64,000 bases of DNA from Arenimonas terrae (GTDB lineage Bacteria; Pseudomonadota; Gammaproteobacteria; Xanthomonadales; Xanthomonadaceae): positions 434,001 to 498,000 of the forward strand of contig NZ_SMDR01000001.1 of the NCBI RefSeq assembly GCF_006265115.1. The letters are read 5' to 3'. The notes beneath the pieces are model-generated. The model made no database searches. It saw nothing but the letters and a program-made list of their open reading frames with translations, and was not told the DNA's origin. Below are positions 2,303-35,247 of the stretch, in pieces. How positions within the stretch are numbered: position 1 is the first letter of the stretch; every line of letters starts with the position of its first letter. A program made the translations under genes and the position numbers.

Positions 2303-2393
2303 CGCCCGTCGGCCTGGTCGGGGTGCGCCTGCGCCCCGGCTTGGCCCGGCGCCACCCCGCGGGTAAGGTGAAGCCTGCTCAGGGGAGGGCGCC

Positions 2394-4067
2394 ATGACCC
2401 AGCCGTTCGGCCGCAACCAGGTGTCCGTGCTCGCGCAGCCGGACTTCCGCAACGTCGCCAGCCGCGCCTTCGACGCCGGCCACACGCTGCCGCAGCTGCT
2501 GATCGACTGCTGCCAGCGCCATGGAAACCGGACCGCCTTCAGCAACCTGGGGCAATCGCTCAGCTTCGCCGACATAGACCGGCAGAGCGCCGATTTCGCC
2601 GCCTACCTGCGCCACGACCTGAAGCTGCAGCCCGGCGACCGCGTCGCGATCATGCTGCCCAACCTGCTGCAGTACCCGGTGGCGGTGCTGGGCGTGCAGC
2701 GCGCGGACCTGGTCGCGGTGCTGGTGAACCCGATGTACACCGCGCGCGAGCTCAGGCACCAGCTCGCCGACTCCGGCGCGCGCGTGCTGGCGGTGCTGGA
2801 CAACTTCGGCGCCGTCGCGCAGGAAGCGCTGCCGGGCACGCCCGTCGAACACGTCATCACCACCCGCGTCGGCGACATGCTGCGCTGGCCGAAGTCGCTG
2901 ATCGTGGACTTCATGCTCAAGCGGGTGAAGAAGATGATCCCGGCCTTCGCCATTCCCGGCGCGATCCGCTGGCCGGCGGCGCTGGCGGCGGGCAGCAAGC
3001 TTCCGCGCGTGGTGTCGTCCGCCAAGGCCACCGACACCGCGCAGCTGCAGTACACCGGCGGCACCACCGGGCTGTCGAAGGGCGCGATCCTGCCGCACCG
3101 GGCCCTGATCGCCAACGTGGCCGCGGCCGAGCAGTGTTTCGGTTACGCGATGGACCCGGCCACCGACGATTTCGTGATCTGCCTGCCGATCTACCACATC
3201 GCCGCCTACACCAACCTGCTGTTCACGATGGTGCATGGCTACCGTGCCGAGCTGGTGACCAACCCGCGCGACATCCCCGGCCTGGTCGCCACGCTGGACC
3301 GGGTGAAGCCGGCCTTCTTCTCCGGCGTGAACACCCTGTACGACGCGCTGATGAACCATCCGGATTTTGCGAAGCTCGATCTGTCCGGCCTCAAGCTCTG
3401 CCTGCAGGGCGGCACCGCGCTGCGCCGCGGCACCGCCGAACGCTGGAAGCAGCTCACCGGCAAGGACGTGGTGGAAGGTTACGGCCTGTCGGAAACCAGC
3501 GCGGCCATCACCTACAACCGCTGGGACGCGCCCAACCCGGTCGGCTCGATCGGCCTGGCCCTGGGCGAGGTCGAGATCAGCCTGCGCGACGAGAACGGGG
3601 TGGAGGTGCCGCCGGGCGAAGCCGGCGAGCTCTGCGCCCGCGGCCCGCAGATGACCACCGGCTACTGGAACCAGCCCGGTGAGACCGCGCAGGCCTTCTT
3701 CGACGGCGGCTGGTTCCGCACCGGCGACATCGCCCGCCAGGACGCGCAGGGCTATTACTTCCTGCTCGACCGCCGCAAGGACATGATCCTGGTCTCGGGC
3801 TTCAACGTCTTCCCGAACGAGGTCGAGGACGTGGTGGCCCTGCATCCGGGGGTGCTGGAAGCGGCCGTGGTCGGCATGCCCGACGAGAAGTGCGGCGAGG
3901 CGGTGCGCCTGGTGGTGGTGCGCCGCGACCCGGCCCTGAGCGAGGACGACCTGCGCACCCACTGCCGCAAGAACCTCACCGGCTACAAGCAGCCCAAGGC
4001 CATCGAGTTCCGCGAAAGCCTGCCCAAGTCCGCCGTCGGCAAGATCCTCCGCCGCGAGCTCCGCTGA
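2394..4067 (+). CDS. fadD: Long-chain fatty acid-CoA ligase (FadD-like, AMP-binding)
   Basis: This 557-residue acyl-adenylate-forming ligase activates fatty acids to acyl-CoA with ATP. The adenylation domain (about 1-430) carries the phosphate-binding loop TGGTTGLSKG (221-230), the A5 motif GYGLSETSA (about 363), and the A7 region GWFRTGDIA. The C-terminal domain has the hinge motif DRRKDMILVSGFNVFPNEVE and the catalytic Lys in GKILRREL near the end. Length and motifs fit FadD/RpfB-type long-chain ligases, but the exact chain length preferred is unknown. The ATG is preceded by a near-ideal AGGGGAGGG. That site is exactly complementary to the loop of a candidate small RNA at 32.3 kb. A REP-like palindrome abuts the stop codon. 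Confidence 0.9.
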   Translation: MTQPFGRNQVSVLAQPDFRNVASRAFDAGHTLPQLLIDCCQRHGNRTAFSNLGQSLSFADIDRQSADFAAYLRHDLKLQPGDRVAIMLPNLLQYPVAVLGVQRADLVAVLVNPMYTARELRHQLADSGARVLAVLDNFGAVAQEALPGTPVEHVITTRVGDMLRWPKSLIVDFMLKRVKKMIPAFAIPGAIRWPAALAAGSKLPRVVSSAKATDTAQLQYTGGTTGLSKGAILPHRALIANVAAAEQCFGYAMDPATDDFVICLPIYHIAAYTNLLFTMVHGYRAELVTNPRDIPGLVATLDRVKPAFFSGVNTLYDALMNHPDFAKLDLSGLKLCLQGGTALRRGTAERWKQLTGKDVVEGYGLSETSAAITYNRWDAPNPVGSIGLALGEVEISLRDENGVEVPPGEAGELCARGPQMTTGYWNQPGETAQAFFDGGWFRTGDIARQDAQGYYFLLDRRKDMILVSGFNVFPNEVEDVVALHPGVLEAAVVGMPDEKCGEAVRLVVVRRDPALSEDDLRTHCRKNLTGYKQPKAIEFRESLPKSAVGKILRRELR

Positions 4068-28671: not shown

Positions 28672-28929
28672 TCAGCCGCGCAGTTTCTTCACGAGGTCCA
28701 CGTACTTCTTCATGGCGTCCTCGGGCTTGGTGCCGGCCAGCTTCTCCCAGGCCTCGTACTTGGCGGTGCCGACGAAGTCGAAGAAGCCCGGCTTGGGGCC
28801 GCTGACGTCGCCCTCGGAGCCCTGCTTGTACAGGGCATAGAGGCGCAGCATGGTGTCGTTGTCGGGCCGGTCGGCCAGGTTCATCACGTCCTGGGCGGCT
28901 TTCTGGAACTGGTCTTTCAGGTCGGCCAT
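28672..28929 (-). CDS. Acyl-CoA-binding protein (ACBP)
   Basis: This 85-residue four-helix protein binds long-chain acyl-CoA in the cytosol. The signature segment LRLYALYKQGSEGDV, then KPGFFDFVGTAKYEAWEKL, is the classic ACBP core with the Tyr and Lys residues that contact CoA. Length is normal. I chose the ATG beginning MADLKDQF; the open frame upstream is not conserved-looking. It is divergent from the fatty acyl-CoA reductase (150 bp between starts) and followed by the TetR gene, so it may present acyl-CoA to that reductase. Confidence 0.95.
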   Translation of the reverse strand: MADLKDQFQKAAQDVMNLADRPDNDTMLRLYALYKQGSEGDVSGPKPGFFDFVGTAKYEAWEKLAGTKPEDAMKKYVDLVKKLRG

Positions 28930-29079
28930 CTTCTTGGATCCCCGGGTTGAAGCGAGGGTGATATCACGCCCCCCGGGGACGGTCAACGCGGGGTTTGTCA
29001 GGGCGATTGCGGTCTGGCAAGTTAGCCGCAAGCGGGCGGCCATCGCGGCCGTTCAAGGGTACAGGGCAGGGGAGAGGTC

Positions 29080-31068
29080 ATGAGCTATTTCGTCACCGGC
29101 GCCACCGGCTTCATCGGGCGTTATCTGGTCAGCAACCTGCTCAAGCGCAAGGGCGCGGTGCACGTGCTGGTCCGCAAGGGCTCCGAGAAGAAGCTCGACG
29201 CCATCGCCGCCCGGATGGGCTGGGACCGCAAGCGCATCGTCCCGGTCGCCGGCGACCTGTCCAAGCCCAAGCTCGGCCTGAGTCCGGCGCAGATCAAGGC
29301 GCTGTCGGGCAAGGTCCAGCACTTCTTCCACCTGGCGGCCATCTACGACATGTCGGCCGACGCCGCCTCGCAGCAGGTCGCCAACATCGACGGGACCCGG
29401 CACGCGATCGAGCTGGCGGCGGCCCTCAAGGCCGGCTGCTTCCACCACACCAGCTCCATCGCCGCCGCCGGGCTCTACCCGGGCGTGTTCCGCGAGGACA
29501 TGTTCGAGGAAGCCGAGGGCCTGAAGGACCCCTACCTGCGCACCAAGCACGAGTCCGAGGGCATCGTGCGCAAGGAGTGCAAGGTCCCGTTCCGCATCTA
29601 CCGCCCGTCCATGGTCATCGGCCATTCCAAGACCGGCGAGATGGACAAGATCGACGGACCTTATTACCTCTTCACGCTGATCAAGAAGATGCGCGAGACC
29701 CTGCCGCAGTGGGTGCCCACCCTGGGCATCGAGGGCGGCCGGCTGAACGTGGTGCCGGTGGACTTCGTGGCCGACGCGATGGACCACATCGCCCACAAGA
29801 AGGGCCTGGACGGGCAGTGTTTCCACCTGGTGGACCCGGAGCCGATGCGCTTCGGCGAGCTGATGAACACCTTCTGCCGCGCCGCCCACGCGCCCGAGAT
29901 GACCATGCGCCTGGACGCCCGCATGCTGGCCGTGGTGCCGGGCGCGGTGCGCAGCGCGGTCAGCAACCTGCCGCCGGTCAAGCGTTTCACCAACATGGTG
30001 CTGCGCGACCTGAAGATCCCGCCGGCGACGCTGGCCTTCATCACCTATCCGACCCGCTTCGACACCCGCGGGGTCGAGCGTGCGCTCAAGGGCAGCAAGA
30101 TCGCCGTGCCGGAGCTGGAAAGCTACGCCTGGCGCATCTGGGACTACTGGGAGCGCCAGCTCGACCCGGACCTGTTCGTCGACCGTTCGCTGCGCGGCAA
30201 GGTCGAGAACAAGGTGGTCGTCATCACCGGCGGCTCCTCGGGCATCGGCAAGGCCTCGGCGATCAAGGTCGCCGAAGCCGGGGCCAAGGTCATCATCGTC
30301 GCCCGTGGCGAGAAGGAGCTGCACGAGACCCGCGACGAAATCCTCGCCGCCGGCGGCAAGTGCTGGGCCTATACCTGCGACCTGACCGACATGGCCAGCT
30401 GCGACGGCCTGGTCAAGACCGTGCTGGCCGAACACAAGGCGGTGGACATCCTGGTCAACAACGCCGGCCGCTCGATCCGCCGCTCGGTGGAGGCCAGCTA
30501 CGACCGCTTCCACGACTACGAGCGCACCATGCAGCTGAACTACTTCGGCTGCCTGCGACTGATCATGGGCTTCCTGCCGGCCATGACCCAGCGCCGCCGC
30601 GGCCACATCATCAACATCAGCTCGATCGGCGTGCTGGCGAGTTCGCCGCGATTCTCCGCCTATGTGGCGTCCAAGGCCGCGCTGGATGCCTTCAGCCGCT
30701 GCGCCCAGGCCGAGTTCAGCGGCAAGAACATCGCTTTCACCACGATCAACATGCCGCTGGTGAAAACGCCGATGATCGCGCCGACCAAGATGTACGACTC
30801 GGTGCCGACGCTGACGCCGGAAGAGGCCGCCGACCTCGTGGTCAAGGCGATCATCGAGCGGCCCAGCCGCGTCGCCACCCGCATGGGCATCTTCGCCGCC
30901 ACGCTCAACGCGCTGGTGCCCAAGGCCTATGAGGTGATCATGAACACCGCCTTCGAGATGTTCCCGGACTCGGCCGCCGCCAAGGGCGACCGCAAGGCGC
31001 TCAAGGACGAGACCCCGACCAACGAGCAGGTCGCCTTCGCGGCGCTGATGCGCGGCGTGCACTGGTAA
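29080..31068 (+). CDS. Fatty acyl-CoA reductase, alcohol-forming, two-domain (Maqu_2507 type)
   Basis: This 662-residue protein joins two Rossmann-type reductase domains. The N-terminal extended SDR (about 1-370) has TGATGFIGRYL and a Tyr152-x3-Lys pair (YLRTKHESEG), and reduces acyl-CoA to the aldehyde. The C-terminal classical SDR (about 375-640) has GGSSGIGKA near 384, NNAGRSIRRS and YVASKAALDAFSR, and would take aldehyde to alcohol. Length and many segments closely match the Marinobacter 661-residue enzyme that makes fatty alcohols for wax esters, including KVPFRIYRPSMVIGHSKTGE and INMPLVKTPMIAPTK (from memory). AGGGGAG precedes the ATG. A strong terminator follows. No wax ester synthase is present in the window. 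Confidence 0.88.
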   Translation: MSYFVTGATGFIGRYLVSNLLKRKGAVHVLVRKGSEKKLDAIAARMGWDRKRIVPVAGDLSKPKLGLSPAQIKALSGKVQHFFHLAAIYDMSADAASQQVANIDGTRHAIELAAALKAGCFHHTSSIAAAGLYPGVFREDMFEEAEGLKDPYLRTKHESEGIVRKECKVPFRIYRPSMVIGHSKTGEMDKIDGPYYLFTLIKKMRETLPQWVPTLGIEGGRLNVVPVDFVADAMDHIAHKKGLDGQCFHLVDPEPMRFGELMNTFCRAAHAPEMTMRLDARMLAVVPGAVRSAVSNLPPVKRFTNMVLRDLKIPPATLAFITYPTRFDTRGVERALKGSKIAVPELESYAWRIWDYWERQLDPDLFVDRSLRGKVENKVVVITGGSSGIGKASAIKVAEAGAKVIIVARGEKELHETRDEILAAGGKCWAYTCDLTDMASCDGLVKTVLAEHKAVDILVNNAGRSIRRSVEASYDRFHDYERTMQLNYFGCLRLIMGFLPAMTQRRRGHIINISSIGVLASSPRFSAYVASKAALDAFSRCAQAEFSGKNIAFTTINMPLVKTPMIAPTKMYDSVPTLTPEEAADLVVKAIIERPSRVATRMGIFAATLNALVPKAYEVIMNTAFEMFPDSAAAKGDRKALKDETPTNEQVAFAALMRGVHW

Positions 31069-31086
31069 GCCGGCGGGGCGAAACGA

Positions 31087-31120
31087 GAAGGGCCGGCGAT
31101 TCGCCGGCCCTTCCTTTTTT
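31087..31120 (+). terminator. Intrinsic terminator of the acyl-CoA reductase gene
   Basis: A perfect 12-bp stem (GAAGGGCCGGCG with its complement), ATT loop, then a C and six T. It lies about 18 bases after the stop codon. Confidence 0.92.
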
Positions 31121-31143
31121 GCGCGGCCGACCCTCCGGTCAGC

Positions 31144-32229
31144 TCACTGGCATTGCCGCCAGCGCACCGGCACGTTCTCGCCGGCCGGCGGCTCGAGCTG
31201 CAGCCGCGAATAACGCAGCTCCTCGTATTCGGTCAGGATCGCGCAGGCGTCGTTGACGATGCCCTTGTCGATGCCGTCGCCGCTGACCATGCTGATGACC
31301 AGGGTCGATTGCGTGGACCAGATGGCGTTGTTGGCGGTCTCCAGGTCGGCCACCCGCGAGGCGGCGACCAGACGGCGCTGGGTGCGCTCCTGGTCGGTAA
31401 GCTTGGCGACTTCGGCCAGCTCCTCCAGCGCAGCGTTGGCGGCGCGCGAGGCTTCGTCCTGGAACTGCGGCGAGGCCGGGGCCGCCGGGGCGGGGGCTTC
31501 GACCGGTGGCGCGGGTGCGGTCGCGGTCGCCGGAGCTTCCGCGCCGGCTGCCGGCACGGACGCCGTCGGTGCGGCGGGGGTCGGCGCGGCAGGCGCCGCC
31601 ACGACGGGCGGCTCCGGCGCTCCGGCCGGCTGCAGGGCGCTGCCCAGGCCGAACACGACCAGGCCCAAGGCCAGGCTGAGGATGCCGCCGATACGCTGGC
31701 CGTGGCTGATCTGGCGCGCCGCGTGCGCCCGGATGTCCTCGATCAGCGCGGCAGGTGCGAACGGCTCGACCTGGGGCCAGAGACTGCGGCCGTCGATCAG
31801 GTCCACGTCATAGCGGCGGGCCAGGTCGCGCGCGAAGCCTTCCGCGCTGCCCAATGTCACCAGGACGCCGCTGGTGGCGCCCTGCAGCTGGACTGCGTTG
31901 GCGAAGTCGCGCACGTTGGCTTCGCCCAGGCGGTAGGCGGTGCCGTGCTTGTAGCTGAGCAGGCAGCGTTCGTCGCCCTTGACCAGCAGGAACTCGGTGC
32001 CGCCGTCGCCGGGCTGCCGGCTCGAGGGGGCTTCCACATAGCCCTTCTCGCCCATGGCCTGGAGCACCAGCCCGGCGCACTCGCGCCACTTCATGCCTGC
32101 GAGCGCGGCGATGCCGGCGCTGGTTTCGGCCTTGCGGCGCCGGTGCACGCCGAACCACCAATGGCTCAGAAGGAACGCGCCGAGGGCGGCCACGACCGCG
32201 GCCACCAGGGGACTCAGACCGAACATCAA
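31144..32229 (-). CDS. Membrane-anchored restriction-endonuclease-like (Mrr-type) protein
   Basis: This 361-residue protein has a membrane helix at 5-25, then a domain resembling the Mrr/PD-(D/E)xK nuclease fold (about 45-150). Its elements are MKWRECAGLVLQAMGEKGY, GDGGTEFLLV (the acidic residues), CLLSYKHG (the Lys strand), and GVLVTLGSAEGFARDLARR. A second membrane helix (about 178-198) is followed by a long Ala/Pro-rich linker (200-260) and a C-terminal domain of ~100 residues with two Cys. The fold assignment rests on the motif pattern and is moderate. Such proteins are common, uncharacterised and not part of a restriction system here. Function is unknown; DNA cleavage is not shown. Confidence 0.62.
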   Translation of the reverse strand: MMFGLSPLVAAVVAALGAFLLSHWWFGVHRRRKAETSAGIAALAGMKWRECAGLVLQAMGEKGYVEAPSSRQPGDGGTEFLLVKGDERCLLSYKHGTAYRLGEANVRDFANAVQLQGATSGVLVTLGSAEGFARDLARRYDVDLIDGRSLWPQVEPFAPAALIEDIRAHAARQISHGQRIGGILSLALGLVVFGLGSALQPAGAPEPPVVAAPAAPTPAAPTASVPAAGAEAPATATAPAPPVEAPAPAAPASPQFQDEASRAANAALEELAEVAKLTDQERTQRRLVAASRVADLETANNAIWSTQSTLVISMVSGDGIDKGIVNDACAILTEYEELRYSRLQLEPPAGENVPVRWRQCQ

Positions 32230-32291
32230 GCAACTCCGACAGGACAGGCGACTGGCTCAGGATAACGCGGAATGGGGTGGGCCCAGGTCCC

Positions 32292-32323
32292 AAAAAGCGA
32301 AGGCCCGGCGTTAGCCGGGCCTT
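32292..32323 (-). terminator. Intrinsic terminator downstream of the phasin gene
   Basis: Ten base pairs (AAGGCCCGGC with its complement) close a 4-base loop and are followed on the minus strand by CGCTTTTT. It ends the phasin transcript and the candidate small RNA embedded in its 3' region. Confidence 0.85.
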
Positions 32324-32400
32324 GCCTGGAGAAGATGTCCGCCAGCCGGAAGCCGCAAGGGGAGGGAGCGAACGGACTTCTGTTACTGGCTGGCGGACAT
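32292..32400 (-). ncRNA. Candidate 3'UTR-derived small RNA with C-rich loop (phasin 3' end)
   Basis: Ten bases after the phasin stop codon the minus strand forms a long stem-loop. A perfect 13-bp outer stem (ATGTCCGCCAGCC at 32400-32388 with its complement at 32347-32335) is followed by inner helices GAAG/CTTC and CCG/CGG. These present a 17-base apical loop containing CGCTCCCTCCCC. Eleven bases later comes a Rho-independent terminator with a T5 tail. The ~109-nt size, structured body, exposed C-rich anti-Shine-Dalgarno loop and terminator are typical of regulatory RNAs. I see no separate promoter, so release by RNase cleavage of the phasin mRNA is the likelier route. Expression is not shown. 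Confidence 0.5.
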
Positions 32401-32410
32401 GAACCGTGGA

Positions 32411-32995
32411 TCAGTTGTTCGGAGCGACCGGCTTCGGCGCCTTGGGCAGCGCCGGCTTGCGCACGGCCTTGGCCTTCTTGGCGGCGGGCTTGCGGGCCGG
32501 GGCCGGCTTGCGCGAGGCCGGCGCCTTGGCGGCCTTCCTGCGGGACGGCGCCGAGCCCGAGAGCTTGCGCAGTTCGCCGTTGAGTTCGTTGACGCGGCTG
32601 GTCAGGTCGGCCAGGTCCTCGCGGCTGGGCACGCCCAGACGGTTGAGGGCGCGCTGCACGCGGGTCTCGAACACGGTCTCGAGGCGGTCCCAGGTGTCGA
32701 CGGCGCGCTCGCGCACCACGCCCACGCGGTCCTCGACGGCGTCGCGCACGGCGTCGACCTTGCCGGTGGCGATCTTGCGGGTGGTCTGCTCGATGTTCAT
32801 GCCTTCCTTGACCAGGGCTTCGAACAGCTTCGAGCCTTCGCCCTGGGCGCGGGTGAAGGCGCCGACGCCGGCCATCCAGATCTGCTGGGCGGAATCGACG
32901 ATCGAACGCGACATCTGCTCGGCCTTGGCCTGCAGGTCGGCATTCGGCTTGCCGGCCGACGACTTGGCGCGGACGCTCTTCTTGAGTTTGGCCAT
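32411..32995 (-). CDS. Phasin-family polyhydroxyalkanoate granule-associated protein
   Basis: This 194-residue protein has a helical phasin core (about 20-135). QQIWMAGVGAFTRAQGEGSK is the family signature, followed by amphipathic coiled-coil-like sequence. The C-terminal tail (about 150-194) is made of Lys/Ala/Pro/Arg repeats (RKPAPARKPAAKKAKAVRKP), as in PhaF-type phasins, where it binds DNA and helps granule segregation. The chosen ATG begins MAKLKKSVRAKSS; upstream open frame is non-coding in character. It lies downstream of the patatin gene on the same strand. No PHA synthase is present in the window. Confidence 0.88.
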   Translation of the reverse strand: MAKLKKSVRAKSSAGKPNADLQAKAEQMSRSIVDSAQQIWMAGVGAFTRAQGEGSKLFEALVKEGMNIEQTTRKIATGKVDAVRDAVEDRVGVVRERAVDTWDRLETVFETRVQRALNRLGVPSREDLADLTSRVNELNGELRKLSGSAPSRRKAAKAPASRKPAPARKPAAKKAKAVRKPALPKAPKPVAPNN

Positions 32996-33101
32996 TGGAA
33001 CGTAACTCCGGTTCAAGGATGGTTGGGCAAGGGCCCGAGTGGCGCCAATCTGCGGCGGTTGTCTAGAGCATTCACACCAACCCCGATGCGGGTTGGCGGG
33101 T

Positions 33102-34364
33102 TCAGCGGCGACGCGCGGCGGCGCGGCGGCGGCGGTTCGGGTGGCGGTCGCGAACGAGTGCGTCGACATCGTCCAGCGCGCGCCGCAGTCGGGCCGTGGT
33201 CTCGGTGGCGCGCGGCGGAATGCCCAGGCCGTCCATGATCGAAGCCGACGGGTCGTCGAGGACTTCGTCGCGCAGGCGCAGGCCGTGTTTGGCCAGCACC
33301 GGCGCCAGTTCGGCGCGACGCTTGCGCAGGTCGCCCAGGGTCGAGCGGAAGGCGTGCTCGCAGACGCGCTGGCGCGACGAATAGCTGAAGACGTTGGTGA
33401 AGAACATCTCGCCGTCGTCCTCGTTCGGCTCGAACACCACCTGGTCGGTGTCCGGGTACTGCTGCGCGTACTTCTCCAGCCCGACCTGCATGCGCGACTG
33501 CAGCAGGGTGCGGAAGGTCTGCGACAGCACCACCGGCAGGCCGCCCTCGGACAGCTTGTCCATGCCTTCGGGCGGCTGGCCGCCGCGGCTGGCGTTGAAG
33601 GGCACGAAGGGGTTGATGCCCAGCATCAGGTCGATGCCGTGGTCGAGGATGACCGAGGCGTGCATGGTCCGGCGCAGGGCGCCGTCGACGAAGTGGTGGC
33701 CGCGGATGTCCACCGGCGGGTACAGGCCCGGCAGGGCCGAGCTGGCCTGCACCGCGCGCGAGATCGGCACGTCGTCCCAGTCCTTGCTCCCGAAGCGGAC
33801 CGGCTGGCCGCTGTCGAGGTCCACGGCGACCACGTAGAGCTTGGAGGCAAGCTCACGGAAATCGTTGCTGCGACCGCGGATGGTGAAGACCTGGCGGAGG
33901 AAATGCTCGATGCCGCGGTTGTCGAACAGCCCGGTCGGGATGGCGCCGCCGAAGCGGCTGATCAGCTCGCTCAGGTGCGAGCCGGTCGGATCGGTCAGCA
34001 CGCCCTTCCACCAGTCGAAGGCGAGGCGGGGCAGGGCCGAGGCGCGGCGGAAGTACTCGAGGAAGGCCGGGCGCAGGAAGATCTCCGGACGGAACTTCAC
34101 CTGGTCGCTGTCGCCGGTGATGAAGATGCGGCACATCTCGGCGGTGTCGAGCCGGTTGGCCAGGCCGGCCGCCAGGAAGGCGCCCGAGCTGACGCCGACG
34201 TAGACCTCGAGCCGGGTCAGGTCCAGGCCCTCGATCGCCACATCCAGGGCGCGCAGGGCGCCGAGCTCGTACATGCCGCCGATCGGGCCGCCGCCGGCGA
34301 TGGCCAGGCCGATCCGGCCCTGGCTGGCTTCCCGGCGCTTCCGGGCGGGCTGCAGAACTAGCAT
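33102..34364 (-). CDS. Patatin-like phospholipase
   Basis: This 420-residue patatin-fold acyl hydrolase has the oxyanion hole loop AGGGPIGGMYELGALRAL (about 23-40), the nucleophile elbow GVSSG (Ser59) and the catalytic Asp in VDGALRR near residue 225. It is predicted to release fatty acids from phospholipids or related esters. The C-terminal ~25 residues are Arg-rich (RDRHPNRRRRAAARRR), which is unusual and could bind nucleic acid or anionic surfaces. The start is the ATG at MLVLQPARKRR, with a TTGTCC-N16-TACAAT promoter just upstream; GGAG is rather far (13 bases). The phasin gene follows after 106 bp on the same strand, which suggests a link to storage-granule lipids. Confidence 0.88.
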   Translation of the reverse strand: MLVLQPARKRREASQGRIGLAIAGGGPIGGMYELGALRALDVAIEGLDLTRLEVYVGVSSGAFLAAGLANRLDTAEMCRIFITGDSDQVKFRPEIFLRPAFLEYFRRASALPRLAFDWWKGVLTDPTGSHLSELISRFGGAIPTGLFDNRGIEHFLRQVFTIRGRSNDFRELASKLYVVAVDLDSGQPVRFGSKDWDDVPISRAVQASSALPGLYPPVDIRGHHFVDGALRRTMHASVILDHGIDLMLGINPFVPFNASRGGQPPEGMDKLSEGGLPVVLSQTFRTLLQSRMQVGLEKYAQQYPDTDQVVFEPNEDDGEMFFTNVFSYSSRQRVCEHAFRSTLGDLRKRRAELAPVLAKHGLRLRDEVLDDPSASIMDGLGIPPRATETTARLRRALDDVDALVRDRHPNRRRRAAARRR

Positions 34365-34396
34365 ATTGTCGGGGACACTCCATCGAAGGCGCGGCG

Positions 34397-34424
34397 ATTG
34401 TAGCCCGCCCACCCGTCCGGACAA
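34397..34424 (-). promoter_or_regulatory. Putative promoter of the patatin gene
   Basis: Read on the minus strand, TTGTCC and TACAAT are 16 bases apart. The start point would be near 34390, giving a ~26-nt leader. Confidence 0.48.
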
Positions 34425-34476
34425 GCGTGAAGCCGCGTATTCCCCAAACCCGTCACTGCCGTTGCCGGAGCGCCCG

Positions 34477-35247
34477 GTGAGCCACGCCTTCCAGCGCCAC
34501 CGGCTGGCGCAGCGGCTGGCCTGGCAGCAGGCCCTGCACGATCCTGAACGTGAACCGCGCAACCGGCTGGCGACCCTGCCGATGCTGCGCGCCTGGCAGA
34601 CCCGCCGCCTGGCCGACAGCTTCCGGGACTTCCTGGCCGATCCGCGCATGCGCCCGGCCGCGGAGTTCTTCCTGACCGACCTGTACGGCGAGCGCGACTT
34701 CTCGGCCCGCGACCGCGATGTCGCGCGGATCATGCCGCTGATGTCGCGGCTGCTGCCCGACAGCCTGCTGGTGGCCGCGACGGATGCGATCGAGCTGGCC
34801 GTGCTCAGCCACGCCTTCGATCTGCGCATGGCCGCGGCGCTGGCGGAGCGCCGCAGCCCCGCCGCGGCGATCACCGTCGAACACTATGGCCAAGCCTACC
34901 GGGCGGTCGGCTGCCCGCGGCTGCGGCGGCACCAGATCGAGCTGATCCTGGGCGTGGGCTGGACGCTGGACGCGGCGGTACGCAAGCACGGTGTCTTCAA
35001 ACTGCTGCGCAGCTCGCGGCTGCCGGCGCGTCTGGCCGGGCTGTCGGAGCTGCAGGGCTTCCTGGAGCGCGGCTTTGCGGCCTTCGAGGCGCTGGGCGGC
35101 GCCGGCGACTTCCTGGAAGCGATCGGCCGGCGCGAGCGCGAAGTCTCGCGGCGGCTGTTCGCCGGTGAGCCCGATCCCTTCGGGGCCGGGCCTAGCCGAA
35201 CTCCTGGTCGAGGAAGCGGTGGATCTCGCGCTCGATCGGGCCCTTGA
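34477..35247 (+). CDS. FFLEELY-motif protein
   Basis: This 256-residue, mostly helical, cytosolic protein belongs to the uncharacterised FFLEELY-motif family found in Lysobacterales and relatives. Here the motif reads AAEFFLTDLYGERDFSARD (about 61-79). The start is a GTG (MSHAFQRHRL) with GGAG 6 bases upstream. The last ~20 residues (PFGAGPSRTPGRGSGGSRAR) are low-complexity, and their coding DNA overlaps the 3' end of the opposing PHA-system gene by 56 bp. Its neighbours (patatin, phasin, PHA-system protein) suggest a role around storage-lipid granules, but the function is unknown. Confidence 0.8.
   Translation: MSHAFQRHRLAQRLAWQQALHDPEREPRNRLATLPMLRAWQTRRLADSFRDFLADPRMRPAAEFFLTDLYGERDFSARDRDVARIMPLMSRLLPDSLLVAATDAIELAVLSHAFDLRMAAALAERRSPAAAITVEHYGQAYRAVGCPRLRRHQIELILGVGWTLDAAVRKHGVFKLLRSSRLPARLAGLSELQGFLERGFAAFEALGGAGDFLEAIGRREREVSRRLFAGEPDPFGAGPSRTPGRGSGGSRARSGP

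Follow-up and report, generated by a model that had tools for sequence, protein, structure and literature searches.

A putative sX5 orthologue accompanying the phasin gene of Arenimonas and its relatives, and its proposed action through a C-rich anti-Shine-Dalgarno loop

Ten nucleotides past the stop codon of a phasin gene, the minus strand of the Arenimonas terrae window (the whole stretch of 64,000 nucleotides analysed here) carries a hairpin with a C-rich loop, and a terminator follows it, which raises the question of whether the hairpin is simply the 3' end of the phasin message or an RNA that acts on other messages. The phasin gene (32411..32995, minus strand; stop codon TGA at 32413-32411), here the putative host transcript, was recognized by Pfam PF05597 (E 6.8e-45) and by the NCBIfam model TIGR01837 for PHA granule-associated proteins (124.8 bits against a cut-off of 94.7). 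The hairpin (32335..32400, minus strand) has a perfect 13-bp outer stem formed by ATGTCCGCCAGCC and GGCTGGCGGACAT (32400-32388 with 32347-32335), above which lie an internal loop, an inner 4+4-bp helix in which the helices GAAG/CTTC and CCG/CGG are found, and an apical loop of 17 nt (32372-32356) containing CGCTCCCTCCCC; the anti-Shine-Dalgarno-like loop core, CCCTCCCC, occupies 32359..32366 on the minus strand. After a gap of 11 nt comes a separate Rho-independent terminator (32292..32323, minus strand), which consists of a 10-bp stem (32323-32300), CGC, and T5 (32296-32292). This layout, from the 10-base gap through the stem, inner helices, 17-base loop and 11-base gap to the T5, had been given by an earlier note on this DNA and proved exact to the base. 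Its predicted folding energy is -32.5 kcal/mol for the hairpin alone, compared with -17.6 +/- 3.0 kcal/mol for shuffled sequences (z -4.9; 0 of 200 shuffles equally low), and hairpin and terminator folded together give a z of -5.25. The hairpin occurs as a single copy in the 3.31 Mb genome.

The phasin gene sits within a lipid-related gene neighbourhood (window 28672-34874), which includes a patatin-like phospholipase gene upstream of it. Beyond phasin, 29080-31065 encodes a fatty-acyl-CoA-reductase-like domain (PF07993) fused with a short-chain dehydrogenase, and 28672-28932 a small protein that by appearance is a putative acyl-CoA-binding protein. A block of the form GGTGTGAA-N-CTCTAGACA (about 33085-33060, minus strand), located upstream of phasin and kept in many relatives, probably serves as the promoter of that gene and contains no PhaR-like box, and TTCCGCGTTATCCT (about 32273-32258, minus strand), conserved among Arenimonas relatives between the terminator and an Mrr-type nuclease gene (31144-32229), is probably the promoter of the nuclease gene.

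To assess conservation independently of the RNA itself, which was not used as a query, the sequence past the stop codons of phasin homologues was read in relatives, and the hairpin was present 3' of phasin in most of them. Across 25 distinct copies, the 11 inner pairs of the outer stem were never broken and CCCTCCCC was never altered. A covariance model made from these 25 copies, to which the window hairpin scores 79 bits, was used for searches of genomes of the order and the class. It found matches in at least 115 of the 397 genomes searched in the order, one place each and including other families; these genome counts are minimum values, given that the searches relied on fast filters and that some divergent copies (G361, G263 and G103) were afterwards spotted by eye. 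Among 369 genomes sampled across the class, matches were restricted to members of the order, with none in the sampled gammaproteobacteria outside it. Of the 125 matches, all but one are located downstream of phasin (one of these 124 overlaps the end of its reading frame), the sole exception being a weak match within a reading frame. Among 94 distinct copies, from a model that favours CCCTCCCC-loop copies and in an alignment fitted to the model structure, two-sided changes affect 10 of the 13 pairs in the outer stem and 7 of the 8 inner ones (17 of 21 overall), the covariation score is 0.267 (0.138 for shuffled alignments, no more than 0.080 for slid structures), and CCCTCCCC is identical in all 94, whereas the inner stem, spacing and flanks vary. 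The phasin-led set, which was neither selected by the model nor fitted to the structure, agrees on the conservation of stem and loop. The conservation of the hairpin is therefore not due to chance, and its outer stem is maintained by compensatory changes; as its distribution among relatives shows, the hairpin is an old companion of the phasin gene across the order. The structured RNA with a C-rich loop that the earlier note had proposed is thus borne out, and the loss of stem and loop in phasin-keeping relatives that would have spoken against it is clearly not what is seen.

The hairpin is not a new kind of RNA. A default Rfam scan gave no match to it at the gathering cut-off, because its score of 37.2 bits falls below the required 50; a permissive scan of the short region identified it as sX5 (RF02224; E 1.3e-7, 32332-32381), a family already known from Xanthomonas, with the match spanning the whole model (positions 1-49 of 49). 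Nine relatives score 54.8-82.5 bits against RF02224 at the same position after phasin, the copies of two relatives equal the Rfam sX5 consensus in every letter, and an A. daejeonensis-type copy (L003) scores 45.7 bits. Given relatives that score up to 82.5 bits at the same place, the window hairpin is a divergent sX5 orthologue, although it is not a member by the Rfam cut-off. It shares with sX5 the full 49-position match, the loop, the 3' arm and the post-phasin place seen in relatives, and differs in its sub-threshold score, in having one C fewer in the loop, and in lying 10 nt past a stop codon with no promoter of its own and a second terminator behind. The earlier note was largely right, and its guess at the class of the RNA was a good one. 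Genus labels of the G-numbered genomes were themselves deduced from the Rfam match. The 49-nt Rfam sX5 begins about 20 nt within the hairpin (1500-1548 in the relative L112) and therefore does not agree with a transcript start at the hairpin base. In addition, its structure line omits the outer stem for which covariation gives support, because RF02224 lacks the 5' arm of that stem, and the RF02224 model should gain a 5' extension. No function for sX5 and nothing relevant on sX5 or on the loop sequence was found in the literature searched, outside which the presumed original dRNA-seq report lies; relative to the literature searched, the additions made here are the order-wide link to phasin, an outer stem missing from the Rfam model and, as described below, two architectures and a promoter with a PhaR-like box.

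How the RNA would be produced seems to differ among genera. At 51 of 125 loci, which belong to Xanthomonas-like genera and related ones, the hairpin is preceded by a conserved block made up of TGTTGC-N3-GC and then (N)ACAAT, the latter with its end 4-7 nt from the hairpin, a spacing that suits a sigma-70 promoter (TTGCAA, 17 nt, NACAAT) with its start at the hairpin base. Taken one by one, the hexamer matches are weak (shuffle p of about 0.01-0.17 per locus), so the promoter call rests on conservation and fixed spacing. The block is found in 0 of 19 Arenimonas copies, and examination of the window sequence upstream of the hairpin likewise revealed no promoter, as the earlier note had remarked. 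In Arenimonas, the hairpin lies 4-39 nt past the phasin stop, mostly 4-14 nt, and a second terminator is common. The hairpin thus occurs in two architectures, with a stand-alone promoter in 51 relatives and as a 3' UTR element in Arenimonas. Since no promoter precedes it in the window, the phasin transcript must be the source of the RNA there, unless the RNA is never released, and the missing promoter, the 10-nt gap and the separate terminator make processing from the phasin mRNA the likeliest route in Arenimonas; the RNA would be transcribed with phasin, end at the following terminator, and then be cut free or act while attached. Release from the phasin mRNA, as the earlier note proposed, thus holds as the likeliest route for Arenimonas but not for the 51 relatives with a promoter of their own.

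These architectures bear on one alternative, namely that the hairpin is a cis element whose sole task is to terminate the phasin message or to stabilize it. The hairpin almost always stands at the phasin 3' end, and at least five T occur in the 10 nt after the stem in 82 of 103 non-Arenimonas copies (compared with 3 of 19 in Arenimonas), so that it can act as a terminator in those T-rich copies. However, termination has no need of an 8-nt loop that is invariant across the order, the Arenimonas copy already has a separate terminator behind it, a promoter precedes the hairpin in 51 relatives, and where spacers of 150-395 nt separate phasin from the hairpin, the promoter block stays with the hairpin and both are intact. 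We therefore consider a purely cis-acting 3' end element unlikely.

The promoter block may also connect the RNA with polyhydroxybutyrate (PHB) metabolism. A palindrome, TGTTGC-N3-GCAACA, overlaps the hairpin promoter and contains TGCN3GCA, resembling a PhaR box; TGTTGC-N3-GC is present in 50 of the 51 relatives having the promoter and absent in Arenimonas. In Bradyrhizobium, the PhaR sites at phaP1, TGCGACGCA and TGCGTTGCA, have the form TGCN3GCA, and TGC-rich motifs have been reported for other PhaR proteins (PMC10888616). Away from the hairpin, the strict palindrome occurs in five copies in 1.26 Mb of compared sequence, all just before PHB genes (two before a Phasin_2 gene, one before phaE and one before each of two phaB genes), an association that is supportive and not a fair genome-wide test, because many of the loci were chosen for their PHB genes, although the Phasin_2 gene had been reached by searching with a pattern unrelated to them. 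Before a Phasin_2 gene, a tandem pair of TGTTGC/TGCTGC-N3-GCAACA palindromes (L201:1966-2020) is likely a PhaR operator in this order. A PhaR box before phasin itself was rejected, the palindrome being found there in 12 of 118 cases, about the frequency expected by chance, and none was found near phaR of the window genome. PhaR was found in every one of 53 genomes examined, those that have the RNA and those that lack it alike, and its presence therefore does not discriminate between them. On the strength of the palindrome and its placement, a PhaR-type repressor probably covers the hairpin promoter in Xanthomonas-like relatives, where the RNA would be made from its own promoter. With transcription either linked to phasin or covered by PhaR, the RNA would be expected to rise as PHB granules form under either architecture.

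As to what the RNA does, we favour, with slightly better than even confidence, an sX5 orthologue of ~66 nt with an invariant CCCUCCCC loop, derived in this organism from the phasin transcript, that lowers the translation of other messages by anti-Shine-Dalgarno pairing. The single-stranded CCCUCCCC loop would pair with the G-rich Shine-Dalgarno regions (GGGGAGGG) of these messages and so reduce their translation. Such pairing in trans is the best mechanism at present, although unproven, and is preferred because the nearest precedent is sX13, a Xanthomonadaceae sRNA whose C-rich apical loops repress G-rich messages, as determined by experiment, with no need of Hfq (PMC3771888). The two RNAs differ in that sX13 has three stem-loops, lies downstream of polA and has no link to phasin (PMC3771888). 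Its layout is not seen here, where one C-rich hairpin stands beside phasin. Alphaproteobacterial cuckoo RNAs comprise two hairpins with CCUCCUCCC anti-Shine-Dalgarno loops beside a small protein gene. They resemble the present hairpin in combining an anti-Shine-Dalgarno loop with a small-protein gene neighbour and differ in motif, hairpin number and the identity of that neighbour; a cuckoo RNA identity was rejected on motif and hairpin number.

The G-rich complement able to pair with the loop, GGGGAGGG, was used to look for candidate targets. The pattern GGGGAGGG-N2-14-ATG has 21 sites in the window genome compared with 2 for the reversed pattern, which is not a well-matched control; GGAGGAGG, tried as a control Shine-Dalgarno pattern, was poor, lying mostly away from gene starts. 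Genuine gene starts among the 21 sites include those of the proton-pumping pyrophosphatase hppA (PF03030), a wax ester/diacylglycerol acyltransferase (WS/DGAT, PF03007), and an AMP-binding, fatty-acid-CoA ligase-like gene (window 2394), whose site GGGGAGGGCGCCATG (2382..2396, plus strand) is predicted to form 9 pairs with the loop. In addition, the start of a transhydrogenase 4TM subunit gene (PF12769) carries a site in 4 of 4 Arenimonas genomes examined. These four genes are the candidate targets in the window genome. In other genera, GGGAGGGG precedes hppA in 3 of 4 genomes, and by inspection also secreted-protein-like and transporter-like frames that recur between genera. The duplex of hppA with the loop averages -17.3 kcal/mol in 32 genomes of the order compared with -10.9 kcal/mol in 27 other gammaproteobacteria, and the 8-mer of the hppA site occurs in 13 of 32 and 0 of 27, respectively, so that the site is conserved within the family and rare in other gammaproteobacteria. 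Of the candidate targets, hppA is the best conserved. G-rich sites are, of course, also simply ribosome-binding sites. In genomes of the same family with no hairpin found by the model, some of them also with no phasin, the G-rich site before hppA often persists, however (as in G302, G029, G275, G172 and G350). The motif is therefore maintained by more than this RNA, and its conservation was not counted as proof; hppA is a plausible target, though an unproven one.

Instead of an anti-Shine-Dalgarno sequence, the C-rich loop might be bound by a protein or titrate a second RNA as a sponge. In favour of this, a part of the stem, CCGCCA, is nearly invariant beyond what pairing needs, no candidate target is tied to the presence of the RNA, and intergenic repeats with GGGGAGGG occur in relatives. 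We know of no protein partner, which counts against this reading. Moreover, the closest studied RNA, sX13, acts by pairing and without Hfq (PMC3771888), and we judge either role improbable. Palindromic intergenic repeats of the form CCCTCCCCTT-N-AAGGGGAGGG were observed in Lysobacter-like and Arenimonas sequences (L177, L187, L226 and L227), and their transcripts could compete for the C-rich loop.

Another possibility is a cis feedback like that of the Staphylococcus aureus icaR 3' UTR, in which a C-rich motif (UCCCCUG), similar to the present one and likewise located in a 3' UTR, pairs with the Shine-Dalgarno region of its own message (PMC3868564). Loop and phasin message are indeed one molecule in Arenimonas, yet GGGAGGG occurs in only 2 of 116 phasin leaders, which lack the stretch complementary to the loop, the mean duplex is only about 3 kcal/mol better than with shuffled leaders, like a weak Shine-Dalgarno sequence, and relatives with their own promoter would make the RNA as a separate molecule, so that repression of the phasin message itself is very improbable.

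Anti-Shine-Dalgarno pairing with other messages therefore remains the preferred reading. A broader, more tentative possibility, to which we give less than even weight, is that the PHB response has sX5 as its RNA branch, which would be expressed in Xanthomonas-like species from a promoter that PhaR holds until granules form, or as part of the phasin message in Arenimonas, and would lower the expression of uptake and energy genes via their ribosome-binding sites. The order-wide tie to phasin, together with the PhaR-like box in relatives, suggests for this RNA a role in carbon storage that is open to direct test, and because a single RNA is seen both as a stand-alone gene and as a 3' UTR element, ideas on how sRNAs arise from mRNAs can be tested as well.
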